Positions 40,883 through 51,764 of a stretch of DNA of 64,000 nucleotides are shown here, in pieces. The notes beneath the pieces are model-generated. The model saw only the letters and a program-made list of their open reading frames with translations. It was not told where the DNA came from and did no database searches. Within the stretch, counting starts at the first letter, position 1. Each line of letters starts with the position of its first letter. The position numbers were made by a program, and so were the translations under genes. This DNA is from Bacteroidota bacterium. Lineage in GTDB: Bacteria > Bacteroidota > Ignavibacteria > Kryptoniales > JAKASW01. The stretch is taken from assembly GCA_023480735.1 (NCBI GenBank), contig JAMCXB010000044.1, positions 1 through 64,000 on the forward strand, given 5' to 3'.

Positions 40883-41077
40883 ATCATCTCCTGTTCTATT
40901 TGTAGTCCTCAATAAAAAAGTTATCCAAGCATGGGCTAAGAAACAAACCGCCCTTTTTGCCCATCGTGATATTAGACGCAGGGAACCCAAAGCCGGTAAA
41001 AGGCCGACTTCGAACGATTCGCCTCCGCTTCCCGCTTTTATAACTGAAGTTTTACAAAAATATTTCCGATGAAAGTG

Positions 41078-41106
41078 TTGACAAGCTTGTTGTAGTTTCT
41101 TATTAT
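41078..41106 (+). promoter_or_regulatory. Sigma-70-type promoter of the ilv-leu operon
   Basis: TTGACA (41078-41083) and TATTAT (41101-41106) are separated by exactly 17 bp. The start site would fall near 41112-41114, only 7-9 nt before the leader-peptide ATG. This is a near-perfect housekeeping promoter and not the TTTG/TAnnTTTG type used by Bacteroides. Confidence 0.75.
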
Positions 41107-41120
41107 TAACCTAAGAAGAA

Positions 41121-41285
41121 ATGAACGAAACTAGTTCGACATATAGTTCACACACACAAGCGACAAGGGCAATTTCGTTCTCCGAAGTAGTCAGTCCAGA
41201 TCTTCTCGGCCTCGTTTCCCTTATATCCATTCTTATTCTCCTCCTCCTTAGCGAGGGGAATATCCTCCTCGGCATTATTAGCTAA
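41121..41285 (+). CDS. 54-residue Leu/Ile/Val-rich leader peptide (attenuator peptide)
   Basis: A short gene starting ATG-AAC-GAA at 41121 behind an AAGAAGAA stretch and ending at TAA 41283-41285. The first half is Ser/Thr-rich. The second half, from PDLLGLVSLISILILLLLSE through GNILLGIIS, holds 18 branched-chain residues among its last 27 (11 Leu, 6 Ile, 1 Val), including four consecutive Leu codons at 41238-41249. Such peptides sense charged Leu/Ile/Val tRNA by ribosome stalling and control downstream ilv/leu genes. The position right after a consensus promoter and 230 bp before ilvB fits that role exactly. Alternative RNA stems overlap its 3' end. A membrane micropeptide is the less likely alternative. 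Confidence 0.85.
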   Translation: MNETSSTYSSHTQATRAISFSEVVSPDLLGLVSLISILILLLLSEGNILLGIIS

Positions 41286-41386
41286 ATAGCCGAAGGTTAT
41301 TCCCCGAGTCAACGAACCTAACACAAATTCACATCAACTCAGCGGAATAACCCGAAGCGAAAAGCTATAGCCGGGCGGCCCTTTTC
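41255..41386 (+). promoter_or_regulatory. Attenuator: alternative RNA stems after the leader peptide
   Basis: Segment 1 (GGGGAATA, 41255-41262, just after the Leu codon run) pairs with segment 2 (TATTCCCC, 41298-41305), with an inner CCTCGGC/GCCGAAGG stem. Segment 2 (GGTTATTCC, 41295-41303) can instead pair with segment 3 (GGAATAACC, 41344-41352). The two stems exclude each other, and a ribosome stalled at the Leu codons would cover segment 1 and favour 2:3. The best terminator candidate is GAAAAG...CTTTTC (41359-41386) enclosing GCC-GGGC-GGC and containing a T4 run; a classical segment 4 paired to segment 3 was not found. Mechanism is inferred from layout. Confidence 0.65.
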
Positions 41387-41456
41387 AGGGAATGGTCCTG
41401 TCGGGAAATGTCGCACGTAATGTTTGTTCGCAACGATGAGAAGTTCCGTACGATTG

Positions 41457-41475
41457 CAACTCCTTAGAGGAGTTG
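41457..41475 (+). promoter_or_regulatory. Hairpin just upstream of the ilvB ribosome-binding site
   Basis: CAACTCCT-TAG-AGGAGTTG is a perfect 8-bp stem. It contains an AGGAG sequence and ends 25 nt before the GGAG used by ilvB. It could modulate translation or be the last part of the attenuator. No T-run follows. Confidence 0.5.
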
Positions 41476-41512
41476 TCGGATTCAAAAATAAAAAGAAATG
41501 GAGACTCGCATA

Positions 41513-43246
41513 ATGAGTACCAACGAAATGACAGGCGCGGAAATTTTCGTAAAATGCCTGATGGAAGAGAACGTGGAGTACATTTTCGGTTATCCTGGAG
41601 GCGCAGTAATCGGAGTGTATGACGCCATGCACGACATGTCTGACATAAAGCACATCTTGACACGGCATGAGCAGGGTGCCGTTCACGCTGCGGAGGGATA
41701 TGCAAAGGCTACGGGAAAAGTGGGGGTCGTTATAGTCACCTCGGGACCCGGTGCAACCAACACAGTCACCGGCATCGCCGATGCTCATATGGATTCCGTT
41801 CCGCTCGTTGTGTTCACAGGACAAGTTGCGACTAACCTCATCGGCAACGATGCCTTTCAGGAAGCTGATATCATTGGCATAACCCGTTCTATTACGAAGC
41901 ACAACTTCCTGGTGAAGGATGTACGCGATCTCGCCTGGACGATAAAGGCCGCCTTCTACATCGCGTCGACCGGTCGTCCCGGCCCGGTGGTTGTCGACAT
42001 GCCTAAAGACGTTATGGCTTCGGCCACTTCGTTTTCCTATCCTAAAGAGATAAAACTGCGTGGTTACCGTCCTTTCTACTTCGGGCACATGGGTCAAATA
42101 AACAAGGCCGTCGAAATCATAAATTCTTCGAAGAAACCCGTATTGTATGTCGGCGGCGGCGTAATCAACTCCAATGCCTCAAAAGAGGTTTATAATCTGG
42201 CGAAGAAACTGAACGCTCCCGTTGCCATGACGCTAATGGGTTTGGGTTCAATGCCTGGAGACGACAGACTCTCGCTCGGCATGCTGGGCATGCACGGAAC
42301 TTGGTATTCAAATACGGCAGTCGATCAGTGTGACTGCCTTATCGCAATCGGGGCGCGATTCGACGACCGTGTGACCGGTAACCCTCAGACGTTTTCGCCT
42401 AACTCAAGGAAAGTACATATCGACATTGATCCTTCTCAAATAAGCAAGAACGTGAAGGTGGATGTTCCGATAGTGGGGGACGTACGACATGTGCTGGAGA
42501 GATTAACTCCTCTGGTACACTCTCTCGAGACGACAGACTGGCTCGAGCAGATCGACCGATGGAAGAATGAACATCCGCTTCGATATGAAAGCGGGCCCGA
42601 AATTCGTGCACAATACATCATCGAGAAGATCTATGAGCTCACCGATGGAGAGGCGGTTGTGACTGCGGATGTCGGCCAGAATCAGATGTGGGCAGCGCAG
42701 TTCTACAAATTCAAGAATCCGAGATCGTTTCTCACATCCGGCGGACTGGGGACGATGGGATTCTCCTTCCCCGCTTCGATAGGTGCTGCGTTCGGTGTGA
42801 CTGACCGGCCCGTGTTCAGTATAAACGGAGACGGCGGGATTCAAATGAACATTCAAGAACTTACTACGGCAGTCGGAAACAAATTGCCGATAAAAATCAT
42901 AGTGCTGGACAACGGTTACCTCGGAATGGTGCGGCAGTGGCAGGATCTTTTCTACAAGAAGCGTTACAGCCATGTATCGCTTGGAAGCAATCCAGACTTT
43001 GCCAAAATCGCCGAGGCATTCGGCGCAAAAGGATTCGTTGCCGATAAGACAGAAGAAGTCGTCCCCATCCTCAAGGAAGCATTGAAGATAAACGACCGAC
43101 CCGTCATGATAGATTTCAAGACTACAAACGAAGACAACGTTTTCCCGATGATTCCCAGCGGCCGGGCTGTCGCACAAATGATAGACTACCCAAAATCAGT
43201 TGAGGAGCTAAAAATGTCCAATTCCCGTGTGGAGGCCGCCAAGTGA
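41513..43246 (+). CDS. ilvB: Acetolactate synthase large (catalytic) subunit
   Basis: ThDP/FAD enzyme that condenses pyruvate (or pyruvate with 2-oxobutyrate) in valine, leucine and isoleucine synthesis. It has the N-terminal ThDP domain (VEYIFGYPGGAVIGVYDAM with the activating Glu in RHEQGAVHAAEGYA), the central FAD-binding domain (ARFDDRVTG) and the C-terminal ThDP domain (GDGGIQMNIQELTTA followed by DNGYLGMVRQWQ). The ATG at 41513 has GGAG 9 bp upstream; the alternative ATG at 41498 has none, so it is rejected. The stop overlaps ilvN. First enzyme gene of the operon, directly downstream of the attenuator. Confidence 0.96.
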   Translation: MSTNEMTGAEIFVKCLMEENVEYIFGYPGGAVIGVYDAMHDMSDIKHILTRHEQGAVHAAEGYAKATGKVGVVIVTSGPGATNTVTGIADAHMDSVPLVVFTGQVATNLIGNDAFQEADIIGITRSITKHNFLVKDVRDLAWTIKAAFYIASTGRPGPVVVDMPKDVMASATSFSYPKEIKLRGYRPFYFGHMGQINKAVEIINSSKKPVLYVGGGVINSNASKEVYNLAKKLNAPVAMTLMGLGSMPGDDRLSLGMLGMHGTWYSNTAVDQCDCLIAIGARFDDRVTGNPQTFSPNSRKVHIDIDPSQISKNVKVDVPIVGDVRHVLERLTPLVHSLETTDWLEQIDRWKNEHPLRYESGPEIRAQYIIEKIYELTDGEAVVTADVGQNQMWAAQFYKFKNPRSFLTSGGLGTMGFSFPASIGAAFGVTDRPVFSINGDGGIQMNIQELTTAVGNKLPIKIIVLDNGYLGMVRQWQDLFYKKRYSHVSLGSNPDFAKIAEAFGAKGFVADKTEEVVPILKEALKINDRPVMIDFKTTNEDNVFPMIPSGRAVAQMIDYPKSVEELKMSNSRVEAAK

Positions 43247-43734
43247 AGAAGCACACCATCTCTATACTTGTTGAAAACAAATTCGGTGCTTTAAACAGAA
43301 TCGTAGGGCTTTTCAGCGCCCGTGGTTACAACATCGACAGTATTTCGGTCGGGACAAGCGAGGATGATTCCGTTGCCCGTGTCACTATCGTCTCTAAAGG
43401 AGATGACGATATCATCGAACAAATCATCAAGCAGTTGAATAAGCTTGTTGATGTAACCAAAGTAGTCGACCTGACCTATGACAGTTTCGTCGAGAGAGAG
43501 CTGGTCCTCGTAAAAGTATCGGCGAATAGAAATACCAGACCCGAGTTAATGCAAATTTCTGAGATCTTCCGGTCGAAAATTATCGACATAAGCCAGCGAT
43601 CCATTACTATCGAAGCCACGGGAAGCGAGCAAAAAGTAGATGCTATGATAAAGATGCTAGCGCCTTTCGGCATCAAGGAGATTGCACGTACCGGACGTGT
43701 CGCCCTGAAACGCGAATTCGAAGGAGCGGTCTAG
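43243..43734 (+). CDS. ilvN: Acetolactate synthase small (regulatory) subunit
   Basis: A 163-residue ACT-domain protein that activates IlvB and gives valine feedback inhibition. It shows HTISILVENKFGALNRIVGL, FSARGYNIDSISVGTSED (the ligand-binding ACT loop), VEREL at the domain border and the C-terminal EATGSEQKVDAMIKMLAPFG. The GTG start at 43243 overlaps the ilvB stop (GTGA), so the two chains are translationally coupled. Length equals the usual IlvH/IlvN size. Confidence 0.95.
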   Translation: MKKHTISILVENKFGALNRIVGLFSARGYNIDSISVGTSEDDSVARVTIVSKGDDDIIEQIIKQLNKLVDVTKVVDLTYDSFVERELVLVKVSANRNTRPELMQISEIFRSKIIDISQRSITIEATGSEQKVDAMIKMLAPFGIKEIARTGRVALKREFEGAV

Positions 43735-43737
43735 ATA

Positions 43738-43935
43738 ATGGTGGAACAATGGAATGATGGAATAATGGATTGTTCGCGTGTTGGGAGATCAGCACTCTCC
43801 GTACCCGTGTATCCAAAAGATACCCGGAAATTACCGGCCGGTTCACCGAAAGAAATCGGGACGGCCTACCGGAAGAAGCGGAAGGCAGGGCCCACCCTTC
43901 ATTCCATCCTTCCTCAATTCCAATATTCCCAAAGA
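43738..43935. repeat. Imperfect inverted repeat between ilvN and ilvC
   Basis: The left arm consists of short TGGAA-type iterations (ATGGTGGAACAATGGAATGA, then GGAATAATGG). The right arm near 43895-43932 carries the complementary TTCCATCCTTCC and ATTCCAATATTCCC. Between them is a low-complexity spacer without a gene. It separates ilvN from ilvC inside the operon and looks like an intergenic repeat element. Confidence 0.45.
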
Positions 43936-43987
43936 AACTCTTCATCCCTTTTTACAAAACTCTAAAAACCAGAATTAAAGGAAATAG

Positions 43988-44983
<996 letters not shown>

Positions 44984-45008
44984 CCACCACCCGGAAGGAC
45001 CTTTGCTA

Positions 45009-46649
45009 ATGGAACGCAAAATATACATATACGACACGACGCTACGAGATGGCACTCAAGGAGAAGAGATTTCTTTCAGCGTCGAGGACAAGATCAAGAT
45101 AGCATATCACCTTGATGCTTTCGGTGTCGACTACATCGAAGGCGGATGGCCCGGTTCGAATCCGAAAGACATGGAATTCTTCGAACGGATGAAGCATGCC
45201 GATCTCAAACACGCGAAACTCGCCGCTTTTGGAAGCACATGCCGCGCGTCTTTAAAACCGCAGTCGGACGGCAACATAGGCGAGCTTCTAAGAGCCGAGA
45301 CTCCTGTCGTGACAATTTTCGGCAAGTCCTGGGACATGCATGTTACTGAGGCGCTCGGTACCACACTGGAAAGAAATGTCGAGATTATATACGAAACCGT
45401 GAAGTACCTGAAGGACAACGGCAAGGAAGTGGTTTACGACGCCGAACACTACTTCGACGGTTTCAAGTCTAACTCCGATTATGCCGTGAAAACGATTCGT
45501 GCGGCGGAAGCTGCGGGAGCAGACTTCATAGTGCTGTGCGATACTAACGGCGGCAGCATGCCGCATGAGGTTGAAGCGATCACCGAGGTGGCGAGAAAGT
45601 CGGTGAGCACCCGTCTCGGGATCCATGCCCATAACGATTCAGAGCTGGCGGTTGCCAATTCACTCGCTGCAGTACGTACGGGCTGCGTTCAGGTCCAGGG
45701 CACGGTCAACGGATTCGGCGAGCGATGCGGAAACGCCAACCTTTGTTCGATAGTACCTAACCTTCAGTTGAAAATGGGACTTCCGGTCGTCCCCGCTCCA
45801 AAGCTAAAGACCCTCACTGAGCTGTCCAGATTCGTGAGCGAAGTCGCCAATCTTCAGCCGAGGAAGAACCTGGCTTACGTGGGCCAAAGCGCATTCGCTC
45901 ATAAGGGCGGAGTTCACGTGAGTGCGGTCATGAAATCGGCGCGTACTTACGAGCACATCAGTCCCGAGCTGGTGGGAAATTCGCGACGCGTGCTTGTCAG
46001 CGACCTGTCCGGAAAAAGCAACGTTCTCTACAAAGTCGAAGAACTCGGCATACATCTGTCGGGCAACAACGGCCAGGCGACTTCCATAGTGAACAAGCTC
46101 AAGTCTCTCGAAAACGAAGGCTACGTCTATGAAGATGCCGATGCATCTCTGGAAATCCTGATAAGGAAAGACATCGGCGAAGTGACAACACCATTTGAGC
46201 TGGAGGCACTGCGCATAATTATCGAGAAAAATGATAATGACGGTGTTTCACACACTGAAGCGGTGATCAAACTGAGGGTGGGTGACAAGATCGAACATAC
46301 AGCCGCCGAAGGCAACGGGCCGGTGAATGCACTCGATAACGCGCTGCGCAAGGCGCTCCTGCAGTTCTATCCGCAGCTTGCGGAGTCAAAACTGACGGAC
46401 TATAAAGTCAGAGTCGTCGATGGAAGTGACGGAACGAGTGCAAAAGTGAGAGTCTTAATCGAGACCACGGATCATGATTCCAGCTGGAATACCGTCGGCG
46501 TATCGGAGAATATAATAGAAGCGAGCTGGAAGGCGCTGGTCGATTCAATAGTATTCAAAATGATGAAGGATAACGACAACTATAATAATAAGAGTGCCGC
46601 TGTGCGGCATCCCGCTTCGACTCTATCAGGATCCCGGCCAAATGAATGA
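45009..46649 (+). CDS. cimA: (R)-citramalate synthase
   Basis: Condenses pyruvate and acetyl-CoA to citramalate, the threonine-independent entry to isoleucine. The HMGL-type TIM barrel begins [20 protein letters not shown] and contains [14 protein letters not shown], a pattern of citramalate synthases (plain isopropylmalate synthases have VIEAGFP, as in the downstream leuA). It also has [45 protein letters not shown] (HxH metal site) and [16 protein letters not shown] regulatory C-domain spans about 370-525. The ATG at 45009 has GGAAGGA 9 bp upstream; the in-frame TTG at 45003 is rejected. The last 20 residues ([15 protein letters not shown] onward) are non-conserved. Confidence 0.93.
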
Positions 46650-46712
46650 GCTAGGGAAGACATATCCGGCTATTGAGGATAAGCGGGATAAAAGACATTT
46701 GGAGGCAGTAAA

Positions 46713-46943
46713 ATGAAACCCCAGACACGAATCGAGCTGCTTGAGAAAGCCTTGAGCAGCGAAATGGAGACGATCAAACGATATAATGATCATGCCGAGA
46801 CATCAGATGACGCAGAGACCAAGAGACTCTTCCGCTCTCTGGCAAGTCAGAAGTACGAGCACTATCTCCAGATCGAAAAGCATCTCCGTCAGTTGAAGGC
46901 AAACAACGACATTACCGACGCAATTAACAGCATGTTTCAGTAG
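46713..46943 (+). CDS. Small ferritin/rubrerythrin-like helical hairpin protein
   Basis: A 76-residue all-helical protein with a clear ribosome-binding site (TTTGGAGGCAG before the ATG). Two amphipathic helices are visible: LLEKALSSEMETIKRYNDHA and LFRSLASQKYEHYLQIEKHL. The spacing E-x-x-x-x-x-Y in the first and a KYEHYLQIE in the second resemble one half of a ferritin-like four-helix bundle (the second is like the ExxH helix of rubrerythrins). A dimer would complete the bundle. It lies between cimA and leuA with 63 and 24 bp spacing, so it is part of the operon. Metal binding and any link to the Fe-S enzyme LeuCD are inference. Confidence 0.7.
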   Translation: MKPQTRIELLEKALSSEMETIKRYNDHAETSDDAETKRLFRSLASQKYEHYLQIEKHLRQLKANNDITDAINSMFQ

Positions 46944-46967
46944 AACAGAACTCGGGTGAGGAGAGAT

Positions 46968-48527
46968 ATGAAGGACAAAATCTTTATTTTCGACACGACT
47001 CTGCGCGATGGCGAACAATCGCCGGGATGCAGCATGAATACACAGGAAAAGCTGAAGATGGCGAGACAGCTGGAGGCTTTGAATGTGGACGTAATAGAGG
47101 CAGGCTTCCCAATGGCTTCGGAGGGCGATTTTGAAGCCGTCAGGGAGGTAGCCAAAACCATAAAGGGCTGCACTATCGCCGCGCTCTCCAGGGCGACTAC
47201 GGCGGACATAGACCGCGCCTTCGAGGCTCTTCAATATGCCGCAAAACCGCGCATCCACGTCTTCATTGCCACGAGCGATATTCACCTCAAACATAAACTG
47301 AAGAGGACCAGGCAGCAGGTCCTGGAACAGTCCGTGAACACAGTGGCCTACGCGAAGAAGCTTTCCGAAGACGTCGAGTTCAGTTGCGAAGACGCAAGCC
47401 GAAGTGACATCGACTACTTGTGCCAGATCATAGAAGCGGTCATCAATTCCGGCGCTAATGTGGTAAATCTGCCGGATACGGTCGGGTACTCCATTCCGCA
47501 GGATTACGGCTCCATGATCAAGACTATCCGCGAGAGAGTGAAGAACATCGACAAAGCAATCCTGAGCGTGCATTGCCATAACGACCTTGGCCTCGCCGTG
47601 GCGAACTCTATAGCGGCAGTCATGAACGGCGCACGACAAGTCGAATGCACGGTCAACGGGATAGGCGAACGGGCGGGCAATGCATCACTCGAGGAATTCG
47701 TGATGGCACTGAGGACCAGGCCCGACGTTCTTCCCTTCGAGGTCGATGTGAACACGGAGGAGATTTTCAAGTCCAGCAGGCTCCTCTCTACGATGACCGG
47801 GATGATGGTACAACGCAACAAGGCCATCGTGGGGGCGAATGCGTTCTCGCACGAAGCGGGTATTCACCAGGACGGGATCATAAAGAGCAGGATGACTTAC
47901 GAGATTATGACCCCCGAATCCGTAGGCATCAAACACTCCACTCTCGTTCTCGGCAAGCACTCAGGCAGACACGCTCTCAGGCAAAGGTTCGAAGAGCTCG
48001 GATATTCGCTGACCACCGAAGAACTGGACAATGTCTACGTCGAGTTTACCCGGCTCGCCGACAAGAAGAAGGAAATTCTTGACGAAGACTTGATGGCAAT
48101 ATTGAACAACAAATTCGAAAGTGACGAAACCAAATATGTGCTCTCCAGCCTTCAGGTTATGACGGGAACCGGAGTCAAATCAACTGCCGTGCTGGAACTT
48201 AACGACGGAAAGGAGACATACGTCGACTCTGCGACCGGAGACGGGCCGGTCGATGCCGCATATAACGCGATTGAAAGAATCACGAAAATGAACGGGCAGC
48301 TGGTTGATTACACTATAAAATCGGTAACCTGGGGAGGCGACGCAGTTGGAGAAGTCTTCGTCAAAGTCATCTTCAACAATATTGTCTTTACAGGACACGC
48401 AGCCAGCACCGACATCGTTACCGGAAGTGTTGAGGCATATTTGCAGGCAGTCAATCGTGCGCTTTCGGCGAAGTCATCCAGGTCGGCCGAAGAAACTATG
48501 ATTAAGAACCAGGCGAACGCCGTGTAA
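46968..48527 (+). CDS. leuA: 2-Isopropylmalate synthase
   Basis: Commits 2-oxoisovalerate and acetyl-CoA to leucine synthesis. The 519-residue enzyme has [58 protein letters not shown] (HxH), GTVNG-type segment [36 protein letters not shown] and the C-terminal LeuA regulatory dimer domain (about 390-510; [30 protein letters not shown]). GAGGAGAG stands 2-9 nt before ATG 46968; the upstream GTG at 46956 overlaps that site and is rejected. Leucine feedback through the C-domain is expected. Confidence 0.96.
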
Positions 48528-48605
48528 TTCAACGGTCGTTTGACCAAATTCCTGCAGTTAACACTTAAAACTGAAGAAGCACAAAAGTAGAAAGAGATCT
48601 CCAAA

Positions 48606-49901
48606 ATGGGAATGACAATCACTGAGAAGATACTTGCAAATCATTCGGGCCGCGACAGGATCACGCCAGGCGAGAATGTGTGGATTGACGTCGACATTCT
48701 TTTGACTCATGATGTTACCGGACCCGGCACGATTTCAATCTTCAAGAAAGAATTCGGAGAGAAGGCAAAAATCTGGGACAACGATAAGGTCGTCGTAATT
48801 CCGGACCACTATATATTCACGGCAGACCAGCACGCAAAACGTAATGTAGAGTTCTTGCGCAGCTTTGCACAGGAACAAGAGATAGAAAATTTCTATGACG
48901 TCGGCACCCCCCGCTACAAAGGCGTTTGCCACGTCGCTCTTCCCGAGGAAGGTTTTGCGAGACCGGGTGAGGTACTCTTCGGCACAGATTCACATACCTG
49001 CACCGCAGGAGCTTTCGGAGAGTTCGCCACCGGCATCGGAAATACAGACGCCGCGTTCATCCTCGGTACGGGGAAATTATGGGTCAAAGTCCCGTCGACT
49101 GCGCGCTTCGTGTTCGACGGCGAAATGCCCGATTACCTGATGGCAAAGGACCTGATTCTGAAGATCATCGGAGACATCGGAGTCGACGGCGCATCGTACC
49201 AGGCGATGGAATTCGCAGGGGATGCCGTTCACAGTCTGAATATTGAAGAACGTATGACGCTCTGCAATATGGTGATCGAGGCAGGCGGAAAGAACGGCGT
49301 AATTTCCCCGGATGAAAAGACCATGGATTATGTGAAAGCGAAAAGCAACAAATCCTTTTCACCCGTGGTAAATGACTCTGATGCCATTTTCGCTTCCGAA
49401 AGGAAATACGATGTGAGTGAGCTTCCTCCGCTTGTCGCGAAGCCACACTCGCCCGAAAACGTTGAACCTGCAGAGAATCTGTCTTACGTGAAAGTGGACA
49501 GGGTTTACATTGGATCGTGTACGGGCGGCAAGCTCACAGACTTCATCGCGGCGGCAAGAATACTCAACGGCAGAAAGACGGCAGTGGACACCTTCATCGT
49601 TCCCGCAACGACTGACGTTGCGAAAGGCCTGCTTGAAAGGAAGATAGACGGCAAGCCGCTGCGCGCAATTTTCGAGGAGGCAGGCTGCAGAATTGGAAAT
49701 GCAAGCTGTGGAGCATGCCTGGGCGGCCCGGAAGACACTTTCGGACGTCTGAACAGCGAGGAAATCTGCGTCTCGACAACGAACCGCAATTTCCCCGGCA
49801 GAATGGGATCAAAGAAGTCGCAGGTATTTCTGGCTTCACCGCTCACCGCTGCTGCAACTGCGGTCACCGGGAAGATTACCGATCCCAGAAAGTATCTGTG
49901 A
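48606..49901 (+). CDS. leuC: 3-Isopropylmalate dehydratase large subunit
   Basis: [4Fe-4S] hydro-lyase that, with LeuD, isomerises isopropylmalate; with citramalate it can also serve the isoleucine route. The 431-residue chain is the short (homoaconitase/archaeal-like) type. Signatures are DVLLTHDVTGPG-like start DILLTHDVTGPGTISIFKKE, LFGTDSHTCTAGAFGEFATG, YIGSCTGGKLTDFIAAARIL (first Fe-S Cys) and GNASCGACLGGPEDTF (second and third Cys, CxxC). The start at 48606 follows AGAGATCTCCAAA. It is separated from leuD by a 218-bp repeat-bearing spacer. Confidence 0.95.
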   Translation: MGMTITEKILANHSGRDRITPGENVWIDVDILLTHDVTGPGTISIFKKEFGEKAKIWDNDKVVVIPDHYIFTADQHAKRNVEFLRSFAQEQEIENFYDVGTPRYKGVCHVALPEEGFARPGEVLFGTDSHTCTAGAFGEFATGIGNTDAAFILGTGKLWVKVPSTARFVFDGEMPDYLMAKDLILKIIGDIGVDGASYQAMEFAGDAVHSLNIEERMTLCNMVIEAGGKNGVISPDEKTMDYVKAKSNKSFSPVVNDSDAIFASERKYDVSELPPLVAKPHSPENVEPAENLSYVKVDRVYIGSCTGGKLTDFIAAARILNGRKTAVDTFIVPATTDVAKGLLERKIDGKPLRAIFEEAGCRIGNASCGACLGGPEDTFGRLNSEEICVSTTNRNFPGRMGSKKSQVFLASPLTAAATAVTGKITDPRKYL

Positions 49902-49948
49902 TAGTATTTGCTATTATGAGAAACCTGTTCGTGAGTCAAACAAATTTT

Positions 49949-50083
49949 AAATCCTAAGTTCTAAACTCTAAGCAATGCTCACAATTAGAAATCCAAAACT
50001 CTGGAATGGACACAATGGTGTTTTGAATTTTGGTAATTCGAATTCGTTTAGGATTTCGGATTTAGTGCTTAGCATTTGCTGCA
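49949..50083. repeat. MITE-like inverted repeat between leuC and leuD
   Basis: AAATCCTAAGTTCTAAACTC with CTAAGCAATG (49949-49977) is inversely repeated as GATTTAGTGCTTAGCATTT (50059-50077). The interior is AT-rich (GAATTTTGGTAATTCGAATTCG) and non-coding. Similar AAATCC/CTAAGC arms are familiar from intergenic repeats of several environmental phyla. It splits the operon between the two dehydratase subunits. Confidence 0.5.
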
Positions 50084-50119
50084 AACCAGACAAAGTATAA
50101 TAGAGGAGACAGACAAATA

Positions 50120-50704
50120 GTGTCACAGAATAAAATCACAGGAAAAGTCTTTGTCGTTGGCGACAACGTCGATACAGACCAGATCATCCCCGCCAAGCAC
50201 CTTGTCTATAACACACATTCGCCGGAAGAGAGAAAGTTGTACGGCAGATACGCCATGAGCGGGGTACCCGACGAAGAGTCCGGCTTGCCGAAAGGCGGCG
50301 TGAAGTTCGTCAACGGGGATGGTTTTGAATCAGAGTTCAAGATCATCGTCGGCGGAAAGAATTTTGGGTGCGGTTCATCGAGGGAACATGCTCCACTTGC
50401 CCTTCAAGTTGCCGGAGTAAAGGCAGTCATCGCACAAACCTACGCGCGTATTTTCTACCGGAATTCGGTCGATGGAGGTTTCCTGATGCCGCTCGAATCG
50501 GTAGATAATATTTACAAATCATTTTCAACAGGGGATCAGGCGTTGATTGATCTGGAGAAAAACACAATCACAAACTCTACAACTGGTAAGTCCTTTACCC
50601 TGCGATCGCTTGGTGATGCGGCGGATATCATCAATGCAGGCGGCATATTCTCCTATGCCCGCAAAATCGGCATGATACAGACGGTCGCGAGCGCCAATGT
50701 TTAA
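50120..50704 (+). CDS. leuD: 3-Isopropylmalate dehydratase small subunit
   Basis: Swivel-domain partner of LeuC. Over 194 residues it shows [20 protein letters not shown] (start of the aconitase swivel domain), [20 protein letters not shown] (GCGSSREHA, substrate-binding loop, about residues 81-93) and [19 protein letters not shown]. The long form (with [19 protein letters not shown] insertion) is usual for the homoaconitase-like type and matches the LeuC subtype here. The start is GTG at 50120 with GAGGAGAC about 10 bp upstream. It overlaps leuB by 8 bp. Confidence 0.95.
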
Positions 50705-51764
50705 AATAGCAGTAATCCCAGGAGATGGCATTGGTCCAGAAGTTACTTCACAGGCAGTCCGGATACTCAAGAAGGCTTCACATATCTTAAATGAGAAATT
50801 TGAATTCGTGGAATTGAAGGCGGGAGGAATCGCCTTCGAAGCGTTTGGCAAACCACTTCCTGAAGAAACTTTGAAGGCAGCTCTATCAAGCGACGCCGTT
50901 CTGCTTGGAGCAGTCGGCGGCCCACAATGGGATTCCCTTCCCTATGAGTCGAAGCCGGAACAGGCTCTTCTCGGCTTGCGCAAGTCTCTCGAATTATATG
51001 CGAACATTCGGCCCGCAATATTGTTCGATTCGCTACTAGATGCATCTTCCGTGAAGCCCGACATTGTCAAAGGCATAGACATAATCGTGGTGCGCGAATT
51101 GACCGGAGGTATTTATTTCGGCCGTCCGGCGGGTATTCTCGATGAGAACGGAGTTCGCCGCGGGATCAACACTATGACTTACACCGAACCAGAAATCGAA
51201 CGCATAACTCACACGGCTTTCAAGCTCGCGAAGACCAGGAGCAAGCACGTCACTTCCGTTGACAAGGCAAACATCCTGCATACCTCGATGCTCTGGCGCG
51301 AAGTGGTCAACAGAATTCATAAGTCACATTATGCAGATATTCAGCTGGATCACATGTACGTCGACAACGCCTCCATGCAGCTCATCAGAAGGCCGAAACA
51401 ATTCGACGTAATACTGACGGAAAATATGTTCGGCGATATTCTCAGCGACGAGGCATCCATGCTCACCGGATCGATCGGAATGCTTCCTTCGGCGAGTCTC
51501 GGTGAGAAGCACGCACTTTACGAGCCCATTCACGGAAGCGCACCGGATATAGCCGGAAAGGGATTGGCTAACCCGATAGCGAGCATACTCTCTGTTGCGA
51601 TGCTGCTTGAGTATTCCCTTAAGCAGAAGGAGATTGCGAAGAAGATTTTCCGCGCCGTCGAATCTGTCCTGAATGCAGGCTACAGAACCGCGGACATTTC
51701 CTCTTCCAAAGACAATGTCCTATCGACCGAAGAGATGGGTGCGAAGATCGAAAGCGCAATATAG
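50697..51764 (+). CDS. leuB: 3-Isopropylmalate dehydrogenase
   Basis: NAD-dependent oxidative decarboxylation of 3-isopropylmalate (and of the methylmalate analogue in the citramalate route). The 355-residue chain has [106 protein letters not shown] (metal Asp/Asn), [20 protein letters not shown] and [20 protein letters not shown]. All active-site motifs are present. The ATG lies inside the end of leuD. Last enzyme of the operon; a long palindrome follows. Confidence 0.96.

Follow-up and report, generated by a model that had tools for sequence, protein, structure and literature searches.

The locus upstream of ilvB in a Kryptoniales bacterium (Bacteroidota, Ignavibacteria; assembly GCA_023480735.1) raises the question whether a short reading frame rich in Leu and Ile codons is the leader peptide gene of an attenuator and, if so, by which step this attenuator would act on the ilv-leu operon behind it. 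We analysed positions 1 to 64,000 of contig JAMCXB010000044.1, here called the window; the attenuator and operon features given below lie on its plus strand. The sequence evidence, i.e. a promoter, a 54-codon Leu/Ile leader and an RNA segment 2 capable of pairing either with a segment 1 or with a segment 3, makes it very probable that the region is a ribosome-mediated attenuator of the ilv-leu operon sensing charged tRNA-Leu and tRNA-Ile.

A sigma-70-type promoter at 41078..41106 is composed of the boxes TTGACA (41078-41083) and TATTAT (41101-41106) with a 17-base spacer, matching 11 of the 12 consensus positions. The -10 box is separated by 14 bases from the ATG (41121) of the leader peptide gene, and for a transcription start at the usual distance from this box a leader 5' UTR of only about 8 nt is predicted. 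The leader gene (41121..41285; MNETSS...LLGLVSLISILILLLLSEGNILLGIIS) has 54 codons, ends with a TAA stop at 41283-41285 and contains 18 Leu/Ile/Val codons among its final 27, including four Leu codons in series (CTC CTC CTC CTT, 41238..41249), the putative main sensor codons. A preliminary description of this DNA had reported promoter, leader, codon count and four-Leu run, all of which match base for base. Of the 296 ATG frames with 27-80 codons that the window holds, no other contains at least 16 Leu/Ile/Val in the last 27 codons, and an ATG frame with at least 18 was obtained in 0 of 5000 base shuffles of 41107-41512. The peptide matched no NCBIfam family.

The first gene of the operon, ilvB (41513..43246), encodes the acetolactate synthase large subunit (TIGR00118, above cut-off). 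Its longest frame begins at 41498; we place the start most likely at 41513, because three relatives (G006, G007, G010) have an in-frame stop ahead of the conserved MSTNE, and GGAGA at 41500-41504 is the likely ribosome binding site. The N-terminus is conserved in the relatives as MSTNE, MSSNE or MSTND. The NCBIfam assignments downstream comprise ilvN (start at 43243), ilvC (43991), a citramalate synthase gene (45003), leuA (46956), a leuC-type gene (48606) and leuB (50697), which form the remainder (43243..51764) of what is likely one operon from ilvB to leuB. The gene at 50120, ahead of leuB, matched no NCBIfam family at E 1e-60 and looks like leuD; ilvD is absent from the genes identified in this operon.

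Segment 1 (41255..41275) is located within the leader gene and consists of GGGGAATA (41255-41262) and CTCGGCAT (41268-41275). Segment 2 (41289..41305; GCCGAAG / GGTTATTCCCC, the latter at 41295-41305) is the alternative partner of segment 1 or of segment 3 (GGAATAACCC, 41344..41353), which contains GGAATAACC at 41344-41352; the three pairing stretches proposed earlier were confirmed at these positions. The spacer between segments 2 and 3 (41306..41343) is A/C-rich, G-poor and unstructured, as judged from composition and folding across 60 loci. Folding identified an additional pyrimidine strand, segment 0 (41234..41245), carrying the first Leu codons of the run and able to pair with segment 1; this hairpin 0:1 is predicted in all 11 genus leaders folded, at energies of -11.8 to -14.3 kcal/mol. 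A candidate segment 4 (CTTTTCAGGG, 41381..41390), drawn by eye and of low confidence, could pair with 41351-41364, a pairing that differs from the predicted fold of this stretch. After the attenuator and before the ribosome binding site follows a hairpin without a U-tract, CAACTCC-TTAG-AGGAGTTG (41457..41475).

Relatives lacking the short frame or its Leu codons had been named beforehand as the outcome contradicting a leader; instead, the leader is kept in 12 of the 13 genomes of the genus, each with one strong match to the core 41200-41360 and with the next matches at chance level, so that none of them showed the element twice. In the remaining genome, G012 (84% complete), all matches are at chance level and a close ilvB is lacking as well. 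The leader lies directly upstream of ilvB in all 11 genomes whose contig reaches this gene, the leader stop and ilvB being 189-229 nt apart in the 11 loci showing both; the contig of G008 carries the leader, stops short of ilvB and is therefore left out of the 11 f1 loci in the family count below. All 12 leader frames, 53-62 codons long, finish in the same Leu/Ile-rich ending, LLLLS(E/G)GN(I/L)LLGII(S/R), and their front half is poorly conserved and differs in length by whole codons. Read by eye, TTGACA together with a TATTAT, TATACT or TATAAT box precedes the leader in 12 of 12 loci. By script, TTGACA was found 31-44 bases upstream of the chosen ATG in 11 of 12; in G005 the script picked a TTGAC match 7 bases further upstream, and in G009 it chose a start 12 bases ahead of the ATG matching the other genus leaders in the alignment.

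In the genus, the median dN/dS is 0.48 for the leader front (46 of 55 pairs usable) versus 0.26 for the last 27 codons (54 of 55). Among the 116 Leu codons in the last 27 codons of the 11 f1 leaders, 102 are CTC or CTT and one is CTG; in six operon genes CTG is the commonest Leu codon (62 of 186). Across the genus, the DNA of segment 1, of the stop region and of segment 2 hardly varies. In the 2:3 stem eight of 11 pairs are constant and two change from U-A to U-G, each in two of 12 sequences; three of 12 have lost the end pair. The stem covariation that the preliminary description proposed to look for was not seen inside the genus, no compensatory change being present in the almost invariant 1:2 stem or in the 2:3 stem; support comes from the comparison between families. 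As segments 1 and 2 vary too little inside the genus, the case rests on swaps between families. On the 3' side of segment 3 the genus sequences keep only few recognisable short motifs.

For these swaps we searched 391 genomes of the class, 123 of which had an ilvB match at E 1e-150. The leader test covered 74 of the 123 loci, mostly those whose DNA reached the operon start, with the other 49 left out; G015 and G317 were dropped, ilvB not lying in the stretch, and 72 loci were examined. In 60 of 63 loci from eight families, the genus included, a leader of 43-73 codons stands ahead of whichever ilv gene opens the operon, ilvB or ilvD (f1 11/11, f4 3/3, f10 11/12, f13 3/4, f17 16/17, f18 1/1, f22 12/12, f26 3/3), a score also reached by 94 of 1440 shuffled 450-base upstream stretches. 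The three loci of these families without a leader by score are G031 (f13), G152 (f10) and G161 (f17; 482 nt available). In f2, belonging to the same order as the genus, a leader was found in none of five loci, a point against the attenuator reading. Two of four f24 loci pass the score; both leaders are unlike those of the other families and were counted as chance. The length range holds for script-chosen starts (ATG in 43 of 62) and for the whole class bar one f24 match of 79 codons, so the remark that the leader is longer than usual is true and extends to other families.

The leader is placed directly before ilvB in the genus and in f17. In f4, f10, f13, f18, f26 and part of f22 the operon opens with ilvD, whose identity was confirmed in six of six genes scanned (one from each of these families), and the leader stands before ilvD; a search of about 600-700 nt around ilvB misses these families, and reading further upstream recovers their leaders. 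In the last 27 codons the f1 leaders are Leu-rich (10.5 Leu, 6.3 Ile) and those of f22 and f10 Ile-rich (9.1-9.2 Ile). Judged by eye, leader peptides of different families resemble each other in their richness in branched-chain amino acids (BCAA) and not in sequence. The leader being an oddity of one genus is ruled out by the leaders in other families, and its occurrence in eight families suggests BCAA attenuator control to be old in the group.

The pairing test was performed on 60 leaders, the two f24 matches being removed. In these, no more than about 20 bases lie between the leader stop and segment 2, and the spacer from there to segment 3 is G-poor and either A/C-rich or A-rich. The sequences of segments 2 and 3 are GGTTATTCC/GGAATAACC in f1, GGTTACTCCC/GGGCGTAACC in f17, GGTCAATCCC/GGGATTGACC in f10 and CGCCAGAGG/CCTCTGGCG in f13. 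The 2:3 duplex has a mean of -22.9 kcal/mol with a family's own partner compared to -13.8 kcal/mol with the partner from other families, 20 of 3000 base shuffles being as good; pairing has therefore been kept while the sequence changed. For the 1:2 duplex the means are -18.7 (own) and -12.3 kcal/mol (swapped), with 222 of 3000 shuffles as good. Little or no advantage of the own 1:2 partner is present in f10 (-12.7 own, -11.4 swapped), f22 (-11.6, -12.1) and f26 (-13.7, -12.4), partly because these families have common sequence.

These findings support a model according to which the position of the ribosome selects between two pairings that folding predicts to be mutually exclusive, 1:2 and 2:3, the former being weak in f10, f22 and f26. 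Under shortage of Leu or Ile, a ribosome that halts on the third codon of the Leu run or beyond it would cover segment 1, leaving segment 2 to pair with segment 3 and transcription to continue into ilvB; slowing on the third or fourth codon of the run, or on the Ile/Leu codons after it, would thus favour 2:3. With good supply, the ribosome would finish the leader and depart, 1:2 would form, and segment 3 would be free for a downstream 3:4 hairpin that would cause premature termination, whether by itself with a poor U-tail or together with Rho.

We modelled stalled ribosomes by folding RNA masked by a ribosome assumed to reach 12 nt ahead of the A site, a procedure run with no shuffled control. 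In the window, predicted stalls at codon 42 onward leave segment 2 free for segment 3. Stalls at codons 37-41, i.e. the start of the Leu run and just before, would leave segment 2 with segment 1, which counts against the simple model. With the ribosome at codons 27-36, the Leu run and segment 1 are free to fold into hairpin 0:1, and 2:3 is once more the favoured pairing. Across the families, likewise with no shuffled control, 52 of 60 leaders have half or more of segment 2 paired upstream before segment 3 is made, and at least three BCAA codons release segment 2 in 60 of 60. The best fold of the untranslated whole leader RNA is 0:1 plus 2:3, so that the switch would be ON without translation, unlike in trp, where superattenuation is the reverse of such a default. 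The predicted folding is compatible with 0:1 either re-forming or staying open behind a ribosome that has passed.

The output step is where the locus departs from the classical picture. We found no canonical U-tract terminator in 40900-41600, hence not the 3:4 hairpin followed by a U-tract that characterises the classical trp and ilv cases. Of the ribosome-mediated attenuation claimed by the preliminary description, the leader, its regulatory codons and the exclusive 1:2 and 2:3 pairings stand, being kept in the genus and in other families, whereas attenuation of transcription through an intrinsic terminator is a putative step in the window. Most genus sequences allow a 3:4 hairpin (ACCU...AGGU around a variable stem) to be drawn by eye, but folding predicts it in only some of them. 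Compared with dinucleotide shuffles, the region gains little stability (f1 median z -0.63, 4 of 11 below -1; over the 60 loci, a mean z of -0.69 and 45 values below zero), lending weak support to this hairpin in the window. A relaxed hairpin-plus-U test, run with no shuffled control, was passed by 4/11 loci in f1, 0/3 in f4, 4/11 in f10, 1/3 in f13, 15/16 in f17, 1/1 in f18, 3/12 in f22 and 1/3 in f26, and not all passing sites overlap segment 3; several of those in f17 have a stem built from segment 3 followed by a T-rich stretch.

The same leader and switch might instead end in Rho-dependent termination, a sub-case of the attenuator explanation that we consider possible but not the probable one. 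Once the ribosome has left and 1:2 has formed, Rho would have access to the spacer, and a stalled ribosome or the 2:3 hairpin would block this access; the spacer at 41306..41343 is a possible Rho loading site, which is speculative. Besides the missing U-tract terminator, this output is favoured by terminator-like sites not exceeding shuffles in two 20-kb parts of the window (22 versus 20.3 and 17 versus 20.6), according to which the lineage may terminate otherwise and use canonical terminators little, and by the spacer being unstructured with a G content of 9% in f1 and 2-13% in the other families. The genome also encodes Rho: of two rho-like genes, G000:C21:50011-51294 (435 aa) and G000:C38:21237-22301 (386 aa), the first alone exceeds the TIGR00767 cut-off. 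Against Rho speak the hairpin-plus-U sites in f17 and f18 and a spacer C content of just 11-13% in f10 and f22.

Alternatively, the switch could act on translation, the alternative structures or the 41457-41475 hairpin governing access to the ilvB ribosome binding site and not transcription. A hairpin does precede this binding site in the window, and inspection by eye shows one in several relatives, but that of the window stops 24 nt short of GGAGA without including it, the leader stop is far from ilvB in the genus loci, and the whole-region fold leaves segments 1-3 unpaired with the ribosome binding site; we regard a translational output as unlikely for this operon. In some loci of f10, f22 and f26 (L206, L211, L216, L220, L224), read by eye, a UCUGAA...UUCAGA hairpin abuts a GAGG ribosome binding site before the next start codon, that of ilvD or of the second ORF described below, which is possibly a translational element and adds to the points in favour of such an output.

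That the frame encodes a small membrane protein with one hydrophobic helix and a function of its own, the RNA pairings being incidental, is very improbable. Such a protein would be in keeping with the hydrophobicity of the last 27 residues and with the purifying selection on them, as given by their low dN/dS, although an overlapping RNA constraint could also lower both rates. The position of the frame tracks the start of the operon, be it ilvB or ilvD, in eight families, what these families share is BCAA richness rather than a peptide sequence, and the 2:3 pairing is maintained by co-change outside the gene. A chance frame in a conserved promoter region, a tRNA-binding T-box or a metabolite riboswitch can practically be discarded: the RNA 41112-41512 folds somewhat better than shuffles (z -2.26), but no shuffle matched the leader's Leu/Ile/Val count, the open frame is conserved in 12 genomes, and Rfam 15 (4227 models) gave no match in the window at gathering score and, at E up to 10, a single sub-threshold match (E 2.7, other strand) in 41050-41540.

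Returning to the attenuator, a joint reading combines a BCAA attenuator of eight families having long leaders and segments rewritten between families with pairing kept, termination in the genus without a U-tract, by Rho or otherwise, and a hairpin 0:1 made from the Leu codons that would set the untranslated default to ON; as a whole, it is possible but less likely than not. The control type itself is known, and the locus is a clear further example and not a new principle; what might set it apart as a variant is the lack of a U-tract terminator together with the default-ON fold. Its 2:3 stem provides co-variation of natural origin, and the element allows a clean test of whether leader attenuators work without U-tract terminators.

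The attenuator leaders of the enteric ilvGMEDA, ilvBN and leu operons have about 28-32 codons and a U-tailed terminator. The element described here shares with them the BCAA-rich leader, the overlapping alternative stems and the position ahead of ilv/leu genes, and it differs by its 54 codons, the range of its class and the U-tail missing in the window. The enteric attenuators are mentioned in the accessible sections of PMC5794164, which give genetic evidence for Leu-dependent attenuation in Staphylococcus aureus, where a Leu-rich peptide likewise precedes the ilv-leu operon, there before ilvD; as described in these sections, the S. aureus attenuator differs in having a terminator with a poly-U tail and in belonging to another phylum. 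Attenuation by a BCAA-rich upstream frame was proposed as a probably common mechanism for ilvB in the portion available of PMC10272879, covering the ilvB-II motif of Corynebacterium, the ilvB-OMG motif of various phyla and the Leptospira ilvB motif. As far as presented there, these motifs resemble our case in the BCAA-rich frame before ilvB and in the attenuation proposed, and they differ in coming from other lineages, the leader of the window being long.

The view that such control is little described in the FCB group is overstated, since leader-peptide attenuation was already suspected in Bacteroidetes. Bacteroid-trp (RF01692) is an attenuator by nature, and attenuators in Bacteroidetes/Chlorobi are reportedly mentioned by Vitreschak et al. 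2004. In the passages accessible, the transcriptome of Flavobacterium psychrophilum yields strong clues for leader-peptide attenuation before amino-acid operons (PMC9723704), Bacteroides thetaiotaomicron has sORFs in long 5' UTRs (PMC7366714), and Bacteroid-trp is listed as a cis-regulatory RNA of Bacteroidetes (PMC2864571). These candidates are like our element in having leader frames ahead of biosynthesis genes in the FCB group, and the accessible passages contain no ilv/leu case with comparative structure. Our literature searches, from whose coverage subscription journals are largely excluded and which are thus weak evidence of absence, gave, among the titles and abstract openings listed, none that describes an ilv attenuator from Kryptoniota or Ignavibacteria, and no such case stands in the available parts of PMC6429828, PMC4833913 and PMC8632094, the last of which names a Veillonella ilvD motif.

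Two minor observations concern other upstream frames. In the f22 loci with ilvD not adjoining ilvB (L193, L195, L219, L220, L222, L224), a second small ORF follows the first leader, and in most of these six it starts like IlvD (L193: MRSD... RS.L..T..KS; L222: only MRS); judged from its sequence, it looks like the stub of a relocated ilvD. In L193 and L219 this second ORF ends in an Ile-rich run of its own, as if made into a second leader. Outside the genus, a loose test run with no shuffled control, some of whose matches are surely chance, found a BCAA-rich short ORF before ilv genes in 24 of 70 loci. Such ORFs are present in L038, L041, L042, L045 and L055, and in L074, L078, L091, L096, L101, L102, L106, L107 and L109, which we take to be Chloroflexi and several of which have an LVLVE- or LVLIES-like core.
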